Source: Aureispira sp. CCB-QB1 (GTDB lineage: Bacteria > Bacteroidota > Bacteroidia > Chitinophagales > Saprospiraceae). Taken from it: a stretch of 64,000 nucleotides of DNA. A model generated the notes under the pieces. It was not told the DNA's origin, made no database searches, and saw only the letters and a list, made by a program, of their open reading frames with translations. Position numbers and translations under genes: made by a program. The DNA is taken from the NCBI RefSeq assembly GCF_000724545.1, contig NZ_JHBV01000007.1:62001-126000 (forward strand), in the 5' to 3' direction. Each line of letters begins with the position of its first letter. Position 1 is the stretch's first letter. Shown here piece by piece: positions 886 to 32,786 of the stretch.

Positions 886-3800
886 TTATGACTTATAATC
901 GGTTTGCTTGTCGTCTAGCTGTTCTAGGCGGTTGAACAACAGGTCTTTAATGTAAATTTTGGTTCGATAACTTTCTTTCCATTGTATCAATGTCTCTATT
1001 TTAATTTTTTCTTCCTCTGTGTGCAGCGTTTTGTGTTCTATAGAGGTAAGCGCACGACCTAATTTTTCTAGTTGTACCTGTTGTTGTTTGAATTTATCAA
1101 GATTCACTAGACCTTTTTTGTATTCTTTCTTATGATTTTTAATATGGTGAATGGTATTTTGATGGCTATGAGCATATTGATGAAATGCTTGTTCAAGGGA
1201 AGCGTATTCTTTGTCATAAGCTTGTTTGTATTTGTCATAAACAGCTTCAGATTTGGATTGAACAGCTATTAAATCTTCTTCATATTGTTTAATAAGTAGT
1301 GTTTCTTCTTGATTGAGCGCTTCTTGCTTGTCGTTATAATCCTTTTCTAATTGTTCCCAATGCTGTTGTTCTTGTATCAACTGTTGGTGCAATTGTTCGT
1401 TTTTAACTTCCCAATCTTTTTGTAGCTTTTGTTGAGCCTCTTGATATGCTTGTGTTAGAGTTTGAATGGAAGTTTCTTTTTCTTGTAACCAAGATTGACT
1501 GTATGCATTCAATGCTTGTGAACATTCATCTTGTAATTTTTTTTCTTGTTTTGCTCTGTTAATAGTTTCTTGAGGAAGCAAATTCTCCACGACTTTGTTT
1601 AAGTTAGCTTCATAAGCTGCTTTTAATTCGTCAATGGCTTGTTGATGATAAAGGTAACTTTCCATCATGGTAGCCGTTTGAAAAATTTTTGCCGCTGAGA
1701 AGAAAGCCGTTTGGAGCTCTGTGTATTGTTCAAGATCTATTTCTATCGTTAGTAGATGTTCTTTTACAGAATCGACCCAATGTTCCATGAATCCACTATC
1801 TTCAGATAGTGGAGGATACTGGAGTAACCAATCAAGAGCTTTGTGTACAGCATCAAAAGCACGCATCATACTATCGTAATGTGATTTTATTTTCTTTTGG
1901 CGATGACGCAGCGTATAATTGGTAGTATGTCCCAAGCTGGCTTTTTCAATGACAATAGGTGTTGATGTTTGAGTATTATAAGCACTAGCTAATAGAATGG
2001 CATTAACGGACGGAATGGAAAGCCCCAATTTTGAAATGGCTGCTTGAATTTTTTGATACTGTTTTTGATATTCGAACAAAGCAAAATTAAGCGCCGTTCC
2101 ATCCAAGGGTGTTGCCAGTAATCTTAAGGCAGGTTTGTATTGAGAGTTAAACTTACTGCCGACTTTCTTCTTAGCTGCTTTTAGTACTTTTTCTTTAGTA
2201 ATTAGGTGTTTTTTCATCTGTTTGTGCAATTTTGACAAAAGTATTTTCTGTTGCTGTGTATAAGAAGCATACTTAGGATGATTAAACGCAATAGGATGTA
2301 AATCCTGTTGGAGTGATTTTAGGTCTTGTGCAAGTTGTTGATTAACAGTATCGCAGTGGGTTTTGAATTGAGAAAACGAATCAACGTGAATTTGCTTTAT
2401 TTTTTGCGTATAATCTTCGTCTAACTGTTGGGCACTAACGGATTTTTCAGCGTTGAGTTGTTCTAATTCCTTCTTTAAAAGATCAATCCTTTTTTTGCTC
2501 TTAAATTGATGATGGGTATTGTCTTTTTCCAATTGGCGCCCCGTTGATTTGATTTGTTTAAATTGTTTGACAAATTGCTTTCTAATTGCATCTTTTTGAC
2601 TCCACTCTTGTTGCCTAGCCTTTTCCAAAATTGGTTTTAATATACTCTTGATCCAGTGATTAAATTGTGCTACTTCTTGTTTTATTTTTTCTTGTTTGAT
2701 CAAACCTATTTTGATTGGCTCCACAAGATTTTGAGTATGTTGTATTTGTTGAAGATACTGCTCCAACATTTTTTGTTTCTCATGCAATTTTACGACTTGC
2801 TGTTGATGTTGAAGTTCTTGTTGTTTTTTTGTTCGCAATAAAGCATCGTGCTCAACGTATAAGTTGTGGTTTATTTTGGATGATACCGTTTTGCCTACAG
2901 CTTGAATGATATCGTGATTCTTGACAAAGAAAAAGTGAATAGAGATAACGCAAAATAGAATTAACCCTATTAACAACAATCCTTGAAAAAAATAGATAAT
3001 TCCTGATAGAACACACAAAAGCAGCAAGCCCATCATTAATTTGTTACGTTGCAACTGTATGCTTTGTTGATATGCCTTCAAAAGCAAGTCATAGGCACGA
3101 TTCTGCGTATTGAGTCCTATTTTAGGATATTGATGCGTCAAGGAATTGGACAGTCCCTCTTTGATAGGAGGGAGGGAGGGAATGCGAATATCTAAGGGAG
3201 TATAATCTAAATTTAAATCGAGGTCAGGTACATAGTTGGCTGGTTCAAAATACAAATCAGAAGGTGGAATGTCGATTTTAGGAACCTTATCCGCAGCAAT
3301 ATCAAAAGGCAATTCTAATAATTCTGCTAAGGTACTACACCAATCCAGCGCACTCGGTCTATCAAAAGGATTTTTTGCCCCATTCTCAAAACAAGCTTGA
3401 AACAACTGCTGTACAGGAATAGGCAGCTGATGATAATGTTGATGTGGGGGAGGAATAACTTTAAAAGATGCTTTTTTATCAGCATTATGAACATATAAAT
3501 GATGTTGAATTTTGTCGTGGAGACCTACTAAATTATCATAAGGAGGATGGCAGGACGCAGCAAAGGGATGCAACCCCAAAAGCAACTGATAAAAAATAAC
3601 GCCCAAACTAAACCGATCCCATGTCTCATGAATTGTTGTTCGAGGATTGGTATAGTGTTCTGGTGGAGTGTATTCTGGAGTAGCCACTGGAGCCGAAAAA
3701 ATTGTTTTGCCATCTTTGATGACTTCAACCGAATCCATATCTACAATTGCCAATAAACCATTGGGTTGCATCAAGATATTGTCTGGTTTTAAATCTACCA

Positions 3801-4272: not shown

Positions 4273-4374
4273 TGTCGTTCCGTTCAACAGCAGTTTATAT
4301 AGTGTTTGACTAAGGTACTTTAAATGTACTTAAGAATTGGTAGAAAAGCTAGTTTTTGTAGAACGTTATTACAA

Positions 4375-4423
4375 AATAGCCCACTTAAAAGCATTCTTTT
4401 GATATTACTTTTAGTGGGCTATT
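4375..4423 (-). terminator. Hairpin terminator of the efflux operon
   Basis: The arms AATAGCCCACT (4375-4385) and AGTGGGCTATT (4413-4423) are perfect inverted repeats, with further A/T pairing inside. It lies 40 bases past the stop of the outer-membrane channel gene. On the minus strand the hairpin runs into TTTTGTAATAA, a short U-rich tail. Confidence 0.6.
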
Positions 4424-5653: not shown

Positions 5654-8600
5654 GTGTTTTTTGTTTTAGTAAATAAAAAGTACAAGGAACGACTACTAAG
5701 TTGAGTAGAGTAGAAGAAACAAGTCCCCCTACTATGACAACAGCCATAGGGCTTTGGATTTCATTTCCTGCCTGCCCTCCAGCTAAGATCAAAGGAATTA
5801 GAGCCAGTCCAGTTGTAGTAGCTGTCATTAAAATAGGGTTGAGTCGATCCAAGGAGCCTTCTACAATGGCTTCTTTTAGCGATTTGCCTTCTTCTAACAA
5901 AACTTGATACCTTGAAATGAGTAACATTCCATTTCTGGTTGCAATTCCAAATAAACTAATAAAACCAATGGTACTGGCAATAGAGATAATTCCAGAATCA
6001 AAATAAATCATAAAAATTCCTCCAATTAAAGCCAAAGGTAGGTTGGTGAGAATAATAATAGACAGCCAGAATTCTTTGAATTCTCGTAAGATGAGGAAGA
6101 AAATAATAACTAAAGAAAACAAGGAAGTTAACAAGAGCATACTCGTTGCTTTTTGCTCGTTCTCAAACTGACCACCATATTCTAGGTGATAACCTTCGGG
6201 GAGCTGTACATTTTGAGCGATGGTAGCTTGAATTTCTTCTACAGCACTTTTTAAATCTCGGTTGGCAACATTCGTGGCAATGACTAGTTTTCGGTGTACA
6301 TTTTCTCGACTAATGCGCTCAGGACTACTGTTGGATACAATTCGAGCTACTTTACCAAAAGGAATTTTATCCCCTTCAAAGTTCTCAATCAAGAGGTGCT
6401 CTAGTTTTTCGATTTTGTCCCTTGCTTTTTCTTCCAAACGCAATTTTAAATTAAAGCTACGCTGATTTTCGTATACTTGGACTACTGTTTTTCCACCAAT
6501 AGCCATGTCAATAAAATTGGCAAATTGCTCTATACTAATGCCACTACGCGCTAACATTTCATGTTTAGGATAGATATAAATGTGAGGAATTTCTGTCTTT
6601 TGATCCAAGTTAACATCCACAATTCCATCAATAGAACTAATGTTCTGTTTGATCTCATTGCCAATTTGGAACATTTTGGTTAAATCCTCTCCAAATAACT
6701 TAATAGCAACATTAGAACGAGTACCGGAAATCATGTGGTCGATTCGATGTGAGATGGGTTGACCAATGTTAATGGTGACTCCAGGTAGTGCCCCAATTTT
6801 GGCACGAATATCTGCCAATACTTCACTTTTAGAACGCTCCTTCATATTTAAAGGAACCTCAATTTCAGAGGCATAATGACTTTGAGCATGCTCATCCATT
6901 GATGCACGACCAGTACGGCGACCTACCAAGTCTACTTCTGGTATTTCTAATAATAGTTGTTCTACTTTTGTTCCAATTTTATTGGTTTCTGTTAAAGACG
7001 TTTCAGGAGGTACTACTACAGAGATGGTCAAGGAGCCCTCATTGAAATCAGGCAAAAAGGAACGACCTAAACTAGACATTGTAACAATAGAAATAACCAA
7101 CAAAACAAATGCAACTCCTAATACAACATAAGAACGGTTTAAGCTTAGCTTCAAAACCTTGTTATACAGACGCATTAAGCTGCGAATAACAATATTGTAG
7201 TTGATTTTTTGTGTTTCTGTTTCCTCTGCTTGGGCATCTGTTTTGAGTAAGACACTACATAGGGCAGGTGTAATGGCAACTGCTACCAATAAAGAAACGA
7301 CAATAACGATTAAAAAAGCGATCCCTAAAGGCTGTAAAAGACGTCCTTCAACTCCACTAAGGAAGAACAAGGGCAAGAAAGAAGCAATAATAATCAAAGA
7401 AGAATTCAGAATAGAAGACCGGACTTCAAATGTCGCTTCATAGATAATCGTTAGTTTACTGCGTTGTTGATCAATAGGCAAGATGGCATTTTGACGCAGC
7501 CGTTTATAAACATTCTCAACATCCACAATAGCATCGTCTACCAATACACCAACGGCGATAGCCAAACCACCCAAAGTCATGGTGTTAATAGAAAAACCTG
7601 TCCAGTATAATACTAAAATACTTGTGAGTAGTGATAGAGGAATGGTAATAACGGAAATCAAGGTCGTTCGCCATTCCATTAAAAACAAGAAGAGGACTAA
7701 AATAACAAAGAAAATACCTTCCAATAAAACACGCTGTAAGTTATTAATAGAATTTTCGATAAAATCCCCTTGTTTGAATAGTGCCGGGTTTAACTCAACA
7801 GAGGTAGGCAAATTTTTGGCAATCTCTTGGACTGTTTTGTCAATTTCTTGAGTCAATTTTAAGGTGTTGGCACTAGGTTGTTTTAGGATGGTTAAGGTTA
7901 ACGCATCTTGACCATTGATCGAAGCATTTCCTAACTTGGGGGCGCCTCCAATTTTGACATCAGCCAAGTCTCCAACACGGATAGCTACTTCTCCTTCCAT
8001 TTTAACAAAGGCTTCTTCGATCTCCTGAATAGAGCGAATTCTACCTTTGCCAGAGATTAAATATTGTTTGCCATACTGTTCTAAATAACCACCAGAGGCA
8101 TTGTGATTTAATTGTTCAATTGCTTGGTATAGTTCTTCTAAAGAAACATGATGCAACTTCATTTTGGCAGGAGAAGCCAATACTTGATACTCCTTTTCTT
8201 GACCTCCATAAATAATAACTTTGGCAACACCTTCAACGGTCAATAAACGAGGCTTGATATACCAATTGGCTAAGGTATTCATTTCAATTCCAGATAGAGA
8301 GTCGGAAGACATACCGATCATCTGAATTTCTCCCATAATAGAGGCGATTGGTGCCATGACTGGTGTTTTGACCTTGTCTGGCAAATCAGATTGTACGGTT
8401 CCAAGACGCTCGTTGACAATTTGCCGAGCACGATAAATATCCGTTCCCCAATCAAATTCTACAATAACACTAGAAAGTTCAGAGGAAGAAGTCGAGCGAA
8501 TGCGTCGAACATTGGGGGCGCCATTTAAGGCGGTTTCTAGTTTGAATGTAACCAATCGTTCCATTTCTTCGGCAGACATGCCATGTGCTTCTGTCATGAC

Positions 8601-24612: not shown

Positions 24613-26586
24613 ATGAACATAGAATTAACAATAAAGGAAAATGTATCTAAAGCCATTGAAACGCTTTATGATAAAAAAATAGAACTAAATCAGGTTCAAA
24701 TCAAACAAATTCCCAAGCACTTGGAAGGAGACTATAGTGTCATCACATTTCCTTTTGCCAAAGTATTAGGAAAGAAACCTAACGAGATTGCTGCTGAATT
24801 GGCTACTCAGTTAATGGCGCAAAGCAAGGTGATTGCAAATGCTATTTCGGCGGGACCTGGTTTTTGTAACTTGAGTATAGGAGATGCCTATTGGACCGAT
24901 TTTGTGAAAGAGGTTTTAAAAAGTGAAGCTTATGGACAACATCCTTCAAAAAACGAAACGGTGGTGGTCGAATATTCTTCTCCAAATACGAATAAACCGT
25001 TGCATTTAGGGCATATTAGAAACAATCTTTTGGGCTATGCAACGGCTGAAATTCTTAAGGCAGCGGGATACGATGTGAAAAAAGTTCAAATTATCAACGA
25101 TAGGGGGATTCATATTTGTAAGTCTATGTTGGCTTGGCAAAAATGGGGGAATGGCGCAACACCTGCCTCTAGCGAAATGAAAGGAGATCATCTCGTTGGT
25201 TTCTATTACGTGGAATTTGAAAAGCATTTTCAACAAGAGTATTCGGCTTGGCAAGAAACAGAAGTTGGTCAGCAGCATTTGACTGAATGGCTATCCAATG
25301 AAAAGAATGTTAAAAAAGCAGAAAAAGCCATTGAAAAGCAAAAGCAAAAAGCAATAAAAGAGGCAGAAAAAAATGATATTCCTGTTCCAACAGAAAAAGA
25401 ATTAAGCCTTAAATACAATTTGAAAAACTATTTTTATAAAGAGGTTTATAAGAATAAGTATTTTAATAAATATAGTGTATTGGGGACTGCAGCTAAGAAT
25501 ATGCTTCAAAAATGGGAGGCAAATGATGCAGAAATCAAAAACCTTTGGAATACAATGAACAACTGGGTTTATGAAGGGTTTAAGGAAACCTATGAAACCT
25601 TAGGGGTTAATTTTGATAAGTTGTATTACGAATCCCAAACCTATCTGTCGGGCAAACAATTGGTCGTTGATGAATTGAAGTCTGAAAACTCTATTTTCTT
25701 TAAAAAGGATGATGGTTCTACTTGGATAGATTTGACCGATGTCAAATTGGATGAAAAAGTGGTCTTGAGAAGTGATGGAACATCTATGTATATTACACAA
25801 GACTTGGGAACTGCTGCTTTGAGATTCCAAGATTTTGGAATGGATAGAATGGTGTATGTTGTGGGGAATGAACAAGATTATCATTTTAAGGTGTTGTTTG
25901 AAACCTTGAAACGTTTGGGGCATAGCTTTGCCAATAATTGTCACCACTTGTCATACGGAATGGTCAATTTAACAACTGGTAGAATGAAATCTAGAGAGGG
26001 AACGGTAGTGGATGCCGATCATTTGATGGCTGATGTTATTGCAAATGTAAAAGCGGAATCTGAAAGTAGAGAGAAATTGACGGAGTTAACGGAAGCTGAA
26101 AAGGTGAAAATTTGGGAGGCAGTTGCTTTGGGAGCTTTGAAATTTTATATCTTAAAAGTAGAGCCTAGAAAAACCATGACATTTGACCCTAAGCAATCAA
26201 TCGACTTGCAAGGACAAACCGGACCTTATATTCAAAATGCACACGTAAGAACGCAGTCTGTTCAGCGAATGGTGGTAGAGAAAGGGATAGAATTGGTGTC
26301 GTATGATCATTATCAATTGAGCGATGTAGAGCGTGATATTCTTGTCTTAGTACACGAATTACCAAGTACTATTGAAAAGGCGGCTCAAAATTACAATCCA
26401 GCAGATATTGCGAATTATCTCTACGATTTGGCAAAAGAATTTCATAAGTTCTGGGGAAATACAACGATTTTGGATGCGGCTAATCCTGCGGCAACTTCCT
26501 TCCGTTTAGATATGAGCAAAGCGGTGGCGGTAGCACTCAAAGCTGCGGGGCAGCTAATTGGTATGCAAATGCCAGATAGAATGTAG
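24613..26586 (+). CDS. argS: Arginyl-tRNA synthetase
   Basis: The 657-residue class I enzyme has the HIGH-type motif in SSPNTNKPLHLGHIRNN (HLGH near residue 133), an ArgRS N-terminal additional domain in the first 110 residues, a degenerate KMSKS loop (GRMKSREGTVVDAD near 460), and the C-terminal anticodon-binding helical domain ending MQMPDRM. It charges tRNA-Arg in the cytoplasm. Most bacterial ArgRS proteins are 550-600 residues. The extra length here is a Lys/Glu-rich insertion at about residues 225-290, before WNTMNNWVYEGF. The flanking motifs are intact, so function is expected. A promoter upstream and a terminator downstream make it a single unit. Confidence 0.97.
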   Translation: MNIELTIKENVSKAIETLYDKKIELNQVQIKQIPKHLEGDYSVITFPFAKVLGKKPNEIAAELATQLMAQSKVIANAISAGPGFCNLSIGDAYWTDFVKEVLKSEAYGQHPSKNETVVVEYSSPNTNKPLHLGHIRNNLLGYATAEILKAAGYDVKKVQIINDRGIHICKSMLAWQKWGNGATPASSEMKGDHLVGFYYVEFEKHFQQEYSAWQETEVGQQHLTEWLSNEKNVKKAEKAIEKQKQKAIKEAEKNDIPVPTEKELSLKYNLKNYFYKEVYKNKYFNKYSVLGTAAKNMLQKWEANDAEIKNLWNTMNNWVYEGFKETYETLGVNFDKLYYESQTYLSGKQLVVDELKSENSIFFKKDDGSTWIDLTDVKLDEKVVLRSDGTSMYITQDLGTAALRFQDFGMDRMVYVVGNEQDYHFKVLFETLKRLGHSFANNCHHLSYGMVNLTTGRMKSREGTVVDADHLMADVIANVKAESESREKLTELTEAEKVKIWEAVALGALKFYILKVEPRKTMTFDPKQSIDLQGQTGPYIQNAHVRTQSVQRMVVEKGIELVSYDHYQLSDVERDILVLVHELPSTIEKAAQNYNPADIANYLYDLAKEFHKFWGNTTILDAANPAATSFRLDMSKAVAVALKAAGQLIGMQMPDRM

Positions 26587-28330: not shown

Positions 28331-28350
28331 CATTAAACAACACAACAATT

Positions 28351-28830
28351 ATGAGATTAGTAACAAGAAATTTCAATAGACCAACAATCAATACTTTTCC
28401 TAGTTTATGGAACGATTTATTTGCGGATGACTTTTTTGCCAAGCAAGCTAAGAACAAAAATACCTGCAATCCAGTTTATACCAACACACCAGCGGTAAAC
28501 ATCAAAAATAGAGCAGGGCATTATTTTATCGAAGTGGCTGCACCTGGCTTCAAAAAGTCAGACTTTTCGGTAGAGTTAGAAGATAGTACCTTGACAATTG
28601 CTGCAAAGAAAGTTGAGGAAAAAGCGACAGAAGGGGCAGGCGAAAAAACAGAAAAAGAGAGCTATACGCATCGTGAATTTACAAGCCGTTCTTTTAAAAG
28701 AGCATTTACTATCCCAGAAAAAGCAGTCGATGTTGATAAAATTGAAGCAAGTTATGAAGCTGGAGTTTTGGTTATTTCAATTCCTAAAAAGGAAGTAGAA
28801 GAAACAAAATTAAATATTGATGTTCTGTAA
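28351..28830 (+). CDS. Small heat-shock protein (Hsp20/alpha-crystallin family)
   Basis: The 159-residue protein has the N-terminal arm (FPSLWNDLFADDFF), the alpha-crystallin domain from about residue 42 (PAVNIKNRAGHYFIEVAAPG) with a GVLVISIPK motif near 142-150, and a short C-terminal tail. These proteins are ATP-independent chaperones that form oligomers and hold unfolding clients. The start is set at ATG 28351 because homologues begin near here (MRLVTRNFNRP); an in-frame TTG 24 bases upstream lies in the leader hairpin region. The inserted acidic/Lys loop KVEEKATEGAGEKTEKE is typical of Bacteroidota members. It stands alone, followed by a repeat-rich non-coding region. Confidence 0.95.
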   Translation: MRLVTRNFNRPTINTFPSLWNDLFADDFFAKQAKNKNTCNPVYTNTPAVNIKNRAGHYFIEVAAPGFKKSDFSVELEDSTLTIAAKKVEEKATEGAGEKTEKESYTHREFTSRSFKRAFTIPEKAVDVDKIEASYEAGVLVISIPKKEVEETKLNIDVL

Positions 28831-28870: not shown

Positions 28871-29187
28871 CTAAGTAAAGCGATTTTGCGAAGTAAATCG
28901 TATTAGTAAGAATAAACGCACAAGTTTCCTTGGTAGCTACTTAGATAGAAAGAAGCGTAGATGATGTATACAATAGAAGATAAGCAATAAGTAGTTGCCA
29001 ATTGTTCACCCTTTAAAACAAGAAAATAATGAGTAGTAGTAGTAATTATAGGTTTCAAGTCGTTTCGGATTCGTTCCGAAACGACCATTTTTCCATCTCA
29101 AAAGATGTGGGGGGAGTTGGAAAAGTACGTCCCAATTTAGAAGCGGTTGATTTTATGCCAAAAGTAATCTCTAGAGAAAAAAATAAA
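28871..29187. other. Non-coding region downstream of hsp20 with a strong hairpin
   Basis: GTCGTTTCGGA (29059-29069) and TCCGAAACGAC (29075-29085) form an 11-pair perfect hairpin with a 5-base loop. It is followed by CATTTTT, so it could terminate transcription reading rightwards. A weaker dyad CGATT/AATCG lies at about 28880-28899. A 54-codon frame at 29029-29193 spans the hairpin. Confidence 0.5.
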
Positions 29188-29193
29188 AGTTAA
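29029..29193 (+). CDS. Possible 54-residue small protein
   Basis: ATG at 29029 opens a frame to TAA at 29191-29193. The peptide starts MSSSSNYRFQVVSD and contains KDVGGVGKVRPNLEAVDF, a plausible mixed composition without signal peptide or membrane segment. Against it, the frame spans the perfect hairpin at 29059-29085, as expected for non-coding DNA, and its last bases overlap the start of the twin RNA-like unit A. No family was recognised. It is listed as a candidate only. Confidence 0.22.
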   Translation: MSSSSNYRFQVVSDSFRNDHFSISKDVGGVGKVRPNLEAVDFMPKVISREKNKS

Positions 29194-29387
29194 ACAAAAC
29201 TAGAGGTTTGGATGTTATAAAGACATAGAAATTACAACAGAAGAGTGGTCGTTTAAGACTATTTAAAAATAAGAAGGTCGCTTTGCGATAGATACGAAAA
29301 TTAGCACCCCAAGGTGCTATAGGTCACGTTAAGACAACCCAAAGAAAAAAAATGTGCTATCTTGATATATTCGAGATGGCTTTTTTT
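29188..29387 (+). ncRNA. Candidate structured RNA, unit A of a tandem pair
   Basis: This ~200-base unit shares roughly 80% identity by eye with unit B at 29495-29688, and neither carries a shared reading frame. Three hairpins occur in both. The first is AGTGGTC/GACTATT (29244-29250 / 29257-29263), whose two G-U pairs become A-T and G-C in B. The second is AGCACC/GGTGCT (29303-29308 / 29313-29318). The third is a terminal hairpin GCTATCT/AGATGGC (29356-29362 / 29374-29380) followed by seven T. Conserved pairing with changed bases and an intrinsic terminator suggest a small RNA. No clear TAnnTTTG promoter is visible. Confidence 0.5.
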
Positions 29388-29494
29388 GTTTTAAGAGGCA
29401 CCTCTATTTTTAGAAATGATAGACAATTCCATTTATAAATTGATACCTCTTTCGAAAAAAAAAAGTTAAACAAAACGCAAATTTTTTCAAAAAA

Positions 29495-29688
29495 AGTTAA
29501 ACAAAACTGGAGGTTTGAGTGTTATAAAGATATAGAAATTACAACACAATAGTAGTCTAAGACTACTTAAAAATAGGAAGGTCACTTGACGATAGATGCG
29601 AAGATTAGTACCAGTAGGCGCTATAGGTCACGACAAAGAAACCTCAAAGAAGAAATTATGCTGTCTTGATATATTCGAGATAGCTTTT
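29495..29688 (+). ncRNA. Candidate structured RNA, unit B of a tandem pair
   Basis: The second copy starts with the same AGTTAAACAAAACT stretch as unit A. Its hairpins are AGTAGTC/GACTACT (29551-29557 / 29561-29567), AGTACC/GGCGCT (29607-29612 / 29617-29622, one mismatch) and the terminal GCTGTCT/AGATAGC (29660-29666 / 29678-29684) followed by TTTT. ATATATTCGA in the terminator loop region is conserved. A third, isolated AGTTAAACAAAAC lies at 29464-29476 between the units. The convergent gene at 29711 ends 22 bases downstream. Confidence 0.5.
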
Positions 29689-29710
29689 CTTATTTTAGGA
29701 AAGAAAGAGT

Positions 29711-30974: not shown

Positions 30975-32786
30975 ATGTATAAAATTGGCGTTAGCAAGGT
31001 CGAGATGACCTATTTTAAAGAAGGAGCAGGAATGTTAGGGTATGGCATGCATTTTCATAAAATAGAAGGTGTAGAAACTCCCCAATATGCACGTGCTTTT
31101 GTTGTTGAAAATGACCATAAAAAAGTTGTTTTTGTGAATGCAGATTTCTGTTTTTCAACAAACTATCTTAAAACCAGAGTGCTTACTCGTTTAGTGTCGG
31201 AAAAACCAGAATTGGGCTATTCGGATGCAAATGTAATGATTACAGCACAGCATACACACAGTGCGGCGGGTGGGTATACTCAACATTTGGCGTATAATTT
31301 TACAACCCCTGGTTTTAAAGAGGATGTTTGTATGCGTTATGCAAATGCTATTTTTGATGCTATTGTCCTAGCAGATAAGAATAAGAAACCTGGCAATATC
31401 AGCCATCACAAAGCTATGTTTGATAAGGACGCTGAAATATGTTTTAATCGTTCTATTCGTGCTTACAATCAAAACCCAGAAGTTGGCGTACGTATTCCTA
31501 TGAAAAAACGTCATTTGGCTGCTGATCGAACCATGAAATTATTGCGATTTGATGATGCTGATGGGAAACCTATTGGTAGTTTGAACTGGTTTGGCGTACA
31601 CACAACTAGTGTTTCAAATCGCTATCGCAAGGTTTGTTATGATAATAAAGGATATGCAGCTGATATGTTTGAAAATTATCTTCAAGAGAAATATGATAAC
31701 AAAGATATTGTAACAGGTTTTGCACAAGATGCAGCAGGAGATATTAGCCCTAACTTTATATGGGATCGTAGAAATAGAGAGTACCGTGGAAAGCATTTGG
31801 ATGATTACGAAAGTGCGGCTTATAATGGAAAACTGCAAAGCGATAAAGCCAAAGAGATTTTTGAATCTGCTTCTAAGATTGGTAAAAAAATAGAAGGCGA
31901 TATTGATTATTTATTGATGTATGCAGATATGTCGGATGTTGGTATTGACGAATCTTATACAGGAGGGCTAAAACATGAAACGACAAGTGATCCAACTTGG
32001 GGAATGTCTTTTTTGGAAGGAACCACAGATGGTCAAGGAGCAGCTAAGATTGTAGGGCAAGCAGTTCGTGTGTTTTTGGGATCAATTCGTCAAGTCGAAG
32101 TGATGGCAGCTAGAATGAGCAAAGACGAGGCACGTCAGAAAAGAGTAATTGGTTATTATAATGCGCATCACCCTAAGGCAATTGTTATTAATCATGCAAC
32201 AGGGGTAACAGCAGGCGCTATACATCCTGAGAAGTTGGTCGTTCCTGGATTTGTTGATCCGTCGATTAAATTTATCAAATTTGCCAATAAGGTAGGTTAT
32301 GGGAAAAAAACACCTTGGATACCTAAAATTTTACCATTGCAAATTTTTATTATTGGCAATATGGCAATTGTGGGCGTACCTTCAGAAATAACAACGATTG
32401 CAGGAGCTCGCTTGCGCAAGACGGTAGCAAATGTACTAGAAGAACGAGGCGTTTCAGAAGTTTTATTGTCTCCTTATGCGAATTCTTATGCAGGCTATAT
32501 TACCACCTACGAAGAGTATCGTTTGCAATTGTATGAGGGAGGTCATACGCTGTTTGGCAAATGGACTTTAGCGGCTTATCAGATGAAGTTTAGACAGATG
32601 GCAGAGGAACTTTTGAAAGCTCCTGAAGATCGAAAGAAGGTTGCCTTACAGCCCGAAATATTCGATATGAAGGATATTTGGACAGGTATGGATGACTTAG
32701 GTATATTGGCTGCCTTAGAGGCTACGGATGAATTGCTTGAATCGGGAGAGGAAGAAGAAGAAAAAGACGAAGAAGAAGCGGTTTAA
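30975..32786 (+). CDS. Neutral/alkaline non-lysosomal ceramidase-like protein
   Basis: The 603-residue protein resembles neutral ceramidases. Near residues 88-100 is VMITAQHTHSAAGG, matching the zinc-binding HTHS motif (H93, H95), and GDISPNF with the candidate nucleophile Ser258; NWFGVHTTSVSN holds a further His. Ceramidases hydrolyse the ceramide N-acyl bond to sphingosine and fatty acid. The usual signal peptide is absent: it starts MYKIGVSKVEMTYF, so the enzyme appears cytoplasmic, which is odd for the family. The tail is strongly acidic (EEEEEKDEEEAV). The PLP-enzyme gene follows after 41 bases, so they form an operon. The physiological substrate is not evident; Bacteroidota often make sphingolipids, which makes ceramide plausible. 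Confidence 0.85.
   Translation: MYKIGVSKVEMTYFKEGAGMLGYGMHFHKIEGVETPQYARAFVVENDHKKVVFVNADFCFSTNYLKTRVLTRLVSEKPELGYSDANVMITAQHTHSAAGGYTQHLAYNFTTPGFKEDVCMRYANAIFDAIVLADKNKKPGNISHHKAMFDKDAEICFNRSIRAYNQNPEVGVRIPMKKRHLAADRTMKLLRFDDADGKPIGSLNWFGVHTTSVSNRYRKVCYDNKGYAADMFENYLQEKYDNKDIVTGFAQDAAGDISPNFIWDRRNREYRGKHLDDYESAAYNGKLQSDKAKEIFESASKIGKKIEGDIDYLLMYADMSDVGIDESYTGGLKHETTSDPTWGMSFLEGTTDGQGAAKIVGQAVRVFLGSIRQVEVMAARMSKDEARQKRVIGYYNAHHPKAIVINHATGVTAGAIHPEKLVVPGFVDPSIKFIKFANKVGYGKKTPWIPKILPLQIFIIGNMAIVGVPSEITTIAGARLRKTVANVLEERGVSEVLLSPYANSYAGYITTYEEYRLQLYEGGHTLFGKWTLAAYQMKFRQMAEELLKAPEDRKKVALQPEIFDMKDIWTGMDDLGILAALEATDELLESGEEEEEKDEEEAV

Follow-up and report, generated by a model that had tools for sequence, protein, structure and literature searches.

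A probable small RNA family in tandem copies downstream of an hsp20 gene in Aureispira

To our knowledge, no sRNA has been described in the Saprospirales. The nearest functional parallel to the locus considered here is provided by the CcsR1-4 RNAs of Rhodobacter sphaeroides, a group of homologous sRNAs that belong to the photo-oxidative stress response and are made together with the upstream small-protein gene ccaF1 (PMC8307010). The two units of Aureispira sp. CCB-QB1, termed A and B, are likewise homologous and follow a small ORF, and the box at their start is common to sigma-factor and carotenoid genes. In contrast, the CcsR RNAs belong to a different phylum and arise by processing of one precursor that they share with ccaF1; no sequence relation is claimed, and the terminator-like end that A and B each possess argues against a common CcsR-like precursor.

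Rfp18 of Flavobacterium is a structured, lineage-restricted sRNA with measured expression that affects protease mRNAs (PMC9723704), an example of such sRNAs acting on mRNA levels in this phylum. It belongs to the same phylum as A and B, is like them structured and conserved within a lineage, and was absent from general descriptions until transcriptome mapping; it, too, is not claimed to be related to them in sequence. A third comparison is offered by the light-responsive carotenoid regulons of CarH/LitR (PMC7064467). CCB-QB1 possesses a MerR protein that carries a B12-binding_2 domain (L095:3381-4259), and its ECF genes and a carotenoid operon are preceded by the box; however, this protein resembles CarH below the NCBIfam cut-off (76.5 bits against 400), its gene does not adjoin those with the box, and any binding of the protein to the box would be putative.

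Two tandem units downstream of hsp20

The stretch analysed here (the window) comprises 64,000 nt of contig C7 in the 7.37-Mb genome of Aureispira sp. CCB-QB1 (G000). The features of the locus are as follows.

28342-28830, plus strand: hsp20 heat-shock gene (Pfam HSP20, 71.9 bits), which invariably precedes the RNA units where these occur
29029-29193, plus strand: 54-aa ORF between hsp20 and unit A, with similar ORFs in G001 and G006
29212-29389, plus strand: unit A, probable sRNA (5′ end estimated), from its folding and its homologues in seven of the nine genus genomes
29242-29264, plus strand: hairpin 1 of A, from sequence and fold
29291-29325, plus strand: conserved core of A with hairpin 2 (64.5 bits with covariance model R2)
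29356-29389, plus strand: terminator-like hairpin and T tract of A, from sequence, fold and pairs kept among the four closest copies
29519-29693, plus strand: unit B, probable sRNA (5′ end estimated), from its identity to A and folding
29595-29629, plus strand: conserved core of B with hairpin 2 (61.7 bits with R2)
29660-29693, plus strand: terminator-like hairpin and T-rich tract of B, from sequence, fold and pairs kept among the four closest copies

A preliminary description had placed two similar tandem units at 29188-29387 and 29495-29688, and these positions are right, with A and B 82% identical over about 215 nt (210 bits). As first drawn, both begin at a promoter-like box (29189, 29496), so the RNA would probably start some 20 nt later. 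The units share one layout, in which a start block, GTTAAACAAAACTrGAGGTTTGnnTGTTATAAA, is followed by hairpin 1, the core with hairpin 2, and the terminator-like hairpin with its T-rich tail. The stems reported earlier are all present. Hairpin 1 (AGTGGTC/GACTATT in A, AGTAGTC/GACTACT in B) agrees letter for letter, the two G-U pairs of A being A-U and G-C in B, while hairpin 2 (AGCACC/GGTGCT against AGTACC/GGCGCT) has one A-C mismatch in B, and the terminal hairpins (GCTATCT/AGATGGC and GCTGTCT/AGATAGC) both run into T-rich tracts. Compared with dinucleotide shuffles, A folds with a z-score of -3.87 (1 of 200 as good) and B with -3.53 (0 of 200). Neither unit holds a reading frame of at least 50 aa, the longest overlapping one being of 47 aa and confined to B, and A and B share no frame, as had been noted. 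The earlier reading of A and B as homologous RNA-like units is supported.

The surroundings of the units are constant on the 5′ side and variable on the 3′ side. The best hsp20 match lies upstream of the RNA core in G001, G006, G003, G004 and G007; identity to the window gene is 73% in G003 and 39-53% in G002, G004, G005 and G007. On the 3′ side of A and B come two opposite-strand genes, the second of the DNA-alkylation-repair family, and the next same-strand gene varies between species. The second genome of the same species, G040, is identical at 3004 of 3014 positions over the compared stretch of the locus, and the differences include a one-base deletion in the terminator loop of unit A. The rest of the window appears housekeeping-like, with an arginyl-tRNA-synthetase-like ORF (24613-26586, by eye) and a neutral ceramidase family gene (30975-32786), and the whole window contains no tRNA and no known RNA family.

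A small ORF of 54-64 aa is located between hsp20 and the sRNA in three species (29029-29193 in the window, L010 from 1204 and L011 from about 1220). The window ORF has no Pfam match. Pairwise differences show a moderate third-position excess (16/30, 14/27 and 9/23), nonsynonymous codons outnumber synonymous ones, and the matching stretch of G003 is not open, as it contains a premature stop and a hairpin leading into T; the ORF is possibly coding in the three nearest species. In G001 its stop codon overlaps the first GTTAAACAAAACTAG box.

Distribution and structure of the RNA family

The family is defined by a 55-nt core, GAUrCGAArAUUA-hairpin-UAUAGGUC or a near variant, which is found downstream of hsp20 in seven of the nine genus genomes, two of which (G000 and G040) are of one species. 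Four of the seven positive genomes carry tandem copies (G000, G040, G003 and G004). BLAST of 40 related genomes located one full copy each in G001 and G006, again downstream of hsp20, and the hsp20 neighbourhood of five other congeners yielded tandem pairs in G003 and G004, the second G004 copy being the weaker, and a single copy in G007; in G002 and G005 the RNA was found neither near the best hsp20 match nor by R2. A covariance model with a search of related genomes, as suggested in the preliminary description, indeed recovers copies with the same core: R2, built from nine copies all downstream of an hsp20 gene, scores the true copies in these seven genomes at 47.5-70.4 bits.

Beyond the genus, four of 389 other family genomes have an R2 match at E ≤ 0.05, the best of 30.8 bits, and at E ≤ 0.01 there is none in the order sample (396 genomes) and one in the phylum sample (395 genomes; G799, 29.3 bits), samples that overlap and were searched with stricter filters, so weak relatives may be missed. 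Weak, uncounted matches in the family sample are G006:C243 (37.8 bits), G326 (30.8), G252 (29.2), G300 (27.8) and G382 (26.3), and no hsp20 gene or box is present in the stretches read around the first three. The first, at G006:C243:7715-7761 (L168), is a weaker core-like hairpin away from hsp20, either a chance match or a distant paralogue. A second model, R1, covering the 3′ part of the units in four sequences, matches in 58 of 398 family genomes, including the G000, G040, G001 and G006 copies and two matches beside hsp20 in G003; its other matches (27-42 bits) were taken as terminator-like AT-rich noise since several lie on both strands and R2 over the 398-genome family sample did not confirm them. 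A scan of genome contigs with the core pattern returned 18 stretches, three of them Aureispira copies (L170, L179, L184); the other 15 were taken as chance, seven scoring 15-37 bits with R2 (the best, 36.5, on a Bacillus contig) and eight having no match at E ≤ 1. A search of the plasmid collection found nothing.

Rfam 15 has no match at the gathering threshold in the window or in L144, L146, L148, L010 and L011, and at E up to 10 only weak matches appear, all below gathering, which agrees with the earlier statement that no named family fits. Judging from Rfam and among the literature matches listed on Aureispira and on Bacteroidetes or flavobacterial sRNAs, the family, found so far only in Aureispira, a genus of marine bacteria, is apparently new; neither PMC13370916 nor PMC7064467 names this RNA in the portions available.

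Covariation lends the RNA structure modest support, to which terminator replacement and the near-invariant core flanks add. The preliminary description had taken base changes that preserve pairing as a sign of structural selection, and in the core hairpin two of seven pairs do change on both sides yet stay paired across nine copies, namely columns 24-37 (A-U in five, G-C in four) and 25-36 (C-G in five, U-A in three, U-G in one), with no broken cell in either. Between A and B themselves, as among the four closest copies, the changes are one-sided only, and three distal pairs of the core hairpin are broken in two to three of the nine copies each; the covariation support is therefore real but modest. 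Paired cells make up 89.9% of the nine-copy alignment, whereas shuffles give 83.9%, none of 500 being as high, and sliding the partners leaves 29-51%; the covariation score is equalled by 2 of 500 shuffles, figures to be read with the structure having been drawn from the same sequences and with sequence kinship inflating the shuffle and slide controls. The number of pairs with double-sided changes, two, is no higher than in shuffles (mean 2.4), a slide of -3 gives three, and the number of pair types in the core hairpin is below that of shuffles.

Conservation is far stronger in the core flanks GAUrCGAArAUUA and UAUAGGUC than in the stem that they enclose, and in the more distant copies hairpin 1 can no longer be recognised. 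In the terminators of the four closest copies, 10 pairs are kept in all four, four of them with one-sided changes, and the terminator hairpins of G003, G004b and G007 are of unrelated sequence; G004a has no evident terminator. A reading of the core loop as a k-turn was dropped as the needed G-A pair is not conserved.

The shared box and a candidate regulon

A, B and the copies of G001 and G006 have a conserved start block in common, and this contains a box, GTTAAACAAAAC, which stands at the start of four of the nine copies; the other five (G003, G004 and G007) have no box within 260 bases. In the window it occurs three times.

29189-29201, plus strand: GTTAAACAAAACT box at the start of unit A
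29465-29477, plus strand: GTTAAACAAAACG, the first of the two boxes that precede B, at a spacing of 31 bp from the second
29496-29508, plus strand: second box, at the start of unit B

The exact 13-mer AAGTTAAACAAAA has eight sites in the G000 genome, three of which lie at the sRNA locus, three precede genes 1 to 3 in a cluster of five ECF sigma-factor genes (C30), one stands before a phytoene desaturase / phytoene synthase operon (C42) and one before a multihaem cytochrome gene (C16). In the genus genomes without G040 there are 29 exact sites. Sorted by eye, with a Pfam search for two ECF proteins, they comprise 11 before ECF genes, five before carotenoid-type operons, three at the sRNA locus and 10 elsewhere, several of the last inside genes. 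Two of the five carotenoid-type sites, both in G003, precede a DUF2141 gene and an FAD oxidoreductase gene, and their role is less sure. G002 has no exact site.

In total the exact 13-mer is not enriched, with 37 sites against 33 for the reversed control over the nine genomes, the balance varying between genomes (8 against 3 in G000, 3 against 6 in G003 and 2 against 10 in G005), and with one mismatch allowed it is rarer than its control in G000 (75 against 130), so only the placement of the box counts as evidence. Binomial figures for its clustering, 2e-11 and 1e-8, serve as a rough guide only, the intervals having been chosen after the sites were seen. By placement, the box marks a candidate regulon.

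In Flavobacterium psychrophilum, of the same phylum, TAnnTTTG is reported as the sigma-A -7 box (PMC9723704). With a sigma-A-like match defined as TTTG-N18-21-TAnnTTTG with at most one mismatch, the box falls inside the spacer of such a match in five of nine regions upstream of ECF genes and in the units of G001 and G006; A, B and the four carotenoid-type regions have no match under this definition. The box before the sRNA is oriented opposite to that before most ECF and carotenoid genes. Its reading as a sigma-factor element was set aside, since its orientation to the gene is inconstant and it also forms inverted pairs, features more in keeping with a DNA-binding regulator than with a sigma factor. 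One such inverted pair, about 32 bases apart, is conserved in the carotenoid operon promoters of three species (L064:3016-3062, L111 about 4368-4414 and L107 about 7301-7347). The C30 cluster itself (L062:5404-9635) consists of five tandem ECF genes of one family with no evident anti-sigma gene between them, several with upstream GTTTAAC boxes, and in the stretches read of G001, G004, G005 and G006 one such ECF gene each is present.

The MerR-B12 protein might act on the box. In the furthest extension of this idea, a CarH/LitR-like regulator of this kind would control the ECF cluster, carotenoid synthesis and the tandem sRNA pair beside hsp20 through one GTTAAAC operator, the sRNAs being an arm of a light or photo-oxidative stress circuit; we regard this circuit as rather unlikely, and if it is true, RNA control would be wired into the response to light damage in Bacteroidota.

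Possible function and alternative origins

As a conserved non-coding element with predicted intrinsic terminators, the A/B family probably represents sRNAs, ordinary in kind and with a suggestive but unproven regulon. Our main reading, with a probability of roughly 0.55 as a whole, is that A and B are tandem, genus-specific sRNA genes downstream of hsp20 which would have their own promoters, come under the control of a stress regulon and act in trans by base pairing. Each unit would most likely give rise, from a promoter of its own, to an RNA of some 175 nt with its 3′ end at the intrinsic terminator. At the start of the unit, the species of the window and the two closest to it carry GTTAAACAAAAC as a putative operator, and as the same box also stands before ECF genes and a carotenoid operon, the RNA is probably controlled jointly with this regulon of (light or oxidative) stress. 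It would then probably pair with target mRNAs through the near-invariant flanks of the core hairpin, CGAArAUUA and UAUAGGUC.

Whether the units own their promoters bears on a rival account, in which they are parts of the hsp20 3′ region, as read-through or processed 3′-UTR RNA. The RNA units always lie on the same strand as hsp20 and downstream of it, the first core of G004 comes a few tens of bases past the hsp20 terminator, and the copies without a preceding box (G003, G004, G007) fit this account as well. However, terminator-like hairpins intervene between hsp20 and the core in several species, and a conserved box and start block stands before A, B and the G001 and G006 copies, with a sigma-A-like match there in the latter two; such an origin seems rather unlikely. 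A cis-acting leader or attenuator of the following gene would equally account for a structured element with a terminator-like end, but the gene order speaks clearly against it, as the following same-strand gene differs between species and two opposite-strand genes come next in the window, which makes it very unlikely. Least probable of all is a decayed protein gene or a transposon or MITE remnant duplicated by chance, for which the tandem duplication and the AT-rich DNA might be invoked; evidence for such a remnant would have contradicted the preliminary description, but the lack of a shared frame, the absence of any other full-length copy in a search of the G000 genome, and the conservation of position and core in seven genomes speak against it.

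The main alternative to base pairing is protein binding: the RNA may bind a protein or ligand through its core, as a titrating or structural RNA, with no mRNA pairing. The far better conservation of the flanks than of the stem would suit such a role, yet base pairing would conserve the same unpaired flanks, and no known protein-binding motif was recognised in the core. A search of the nine genomes for exact complements of one core flank gave 19 sites, nine of which are the cores themselves, and in eight of the other 10 contexts, viewed by eye, no target recurs between species; this too would agree with protein or ligand binding, although the search covered exact complements of one flank only. 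We consider the binding role rather unlikely.

The RNA family now has a covariance model, keeps a fixed place next to hsp20 and is duplicated in tandem in several species; for a genus that has been little studied, it offers a link to sigma-factor and carotenoid control that can be put to the test. In the reading of A and B as trans-acting sRNAs, the effects of the two copies would add up. The 31-bp spacing of the paired boxes before B is also found in G001 and G006, each with a single copy, so that B may be ancestral and A the more recent of the two. Some 400 nt past the G001 copy, a terminator-like stretch (L010 about 2022-2063, on G001:C420) is 81% identical to the 3′ end of unit A, and R1 scores 33.4 bits over G001:C420:6548-6680; this stretch is possibly the relic of a second tandem copy.
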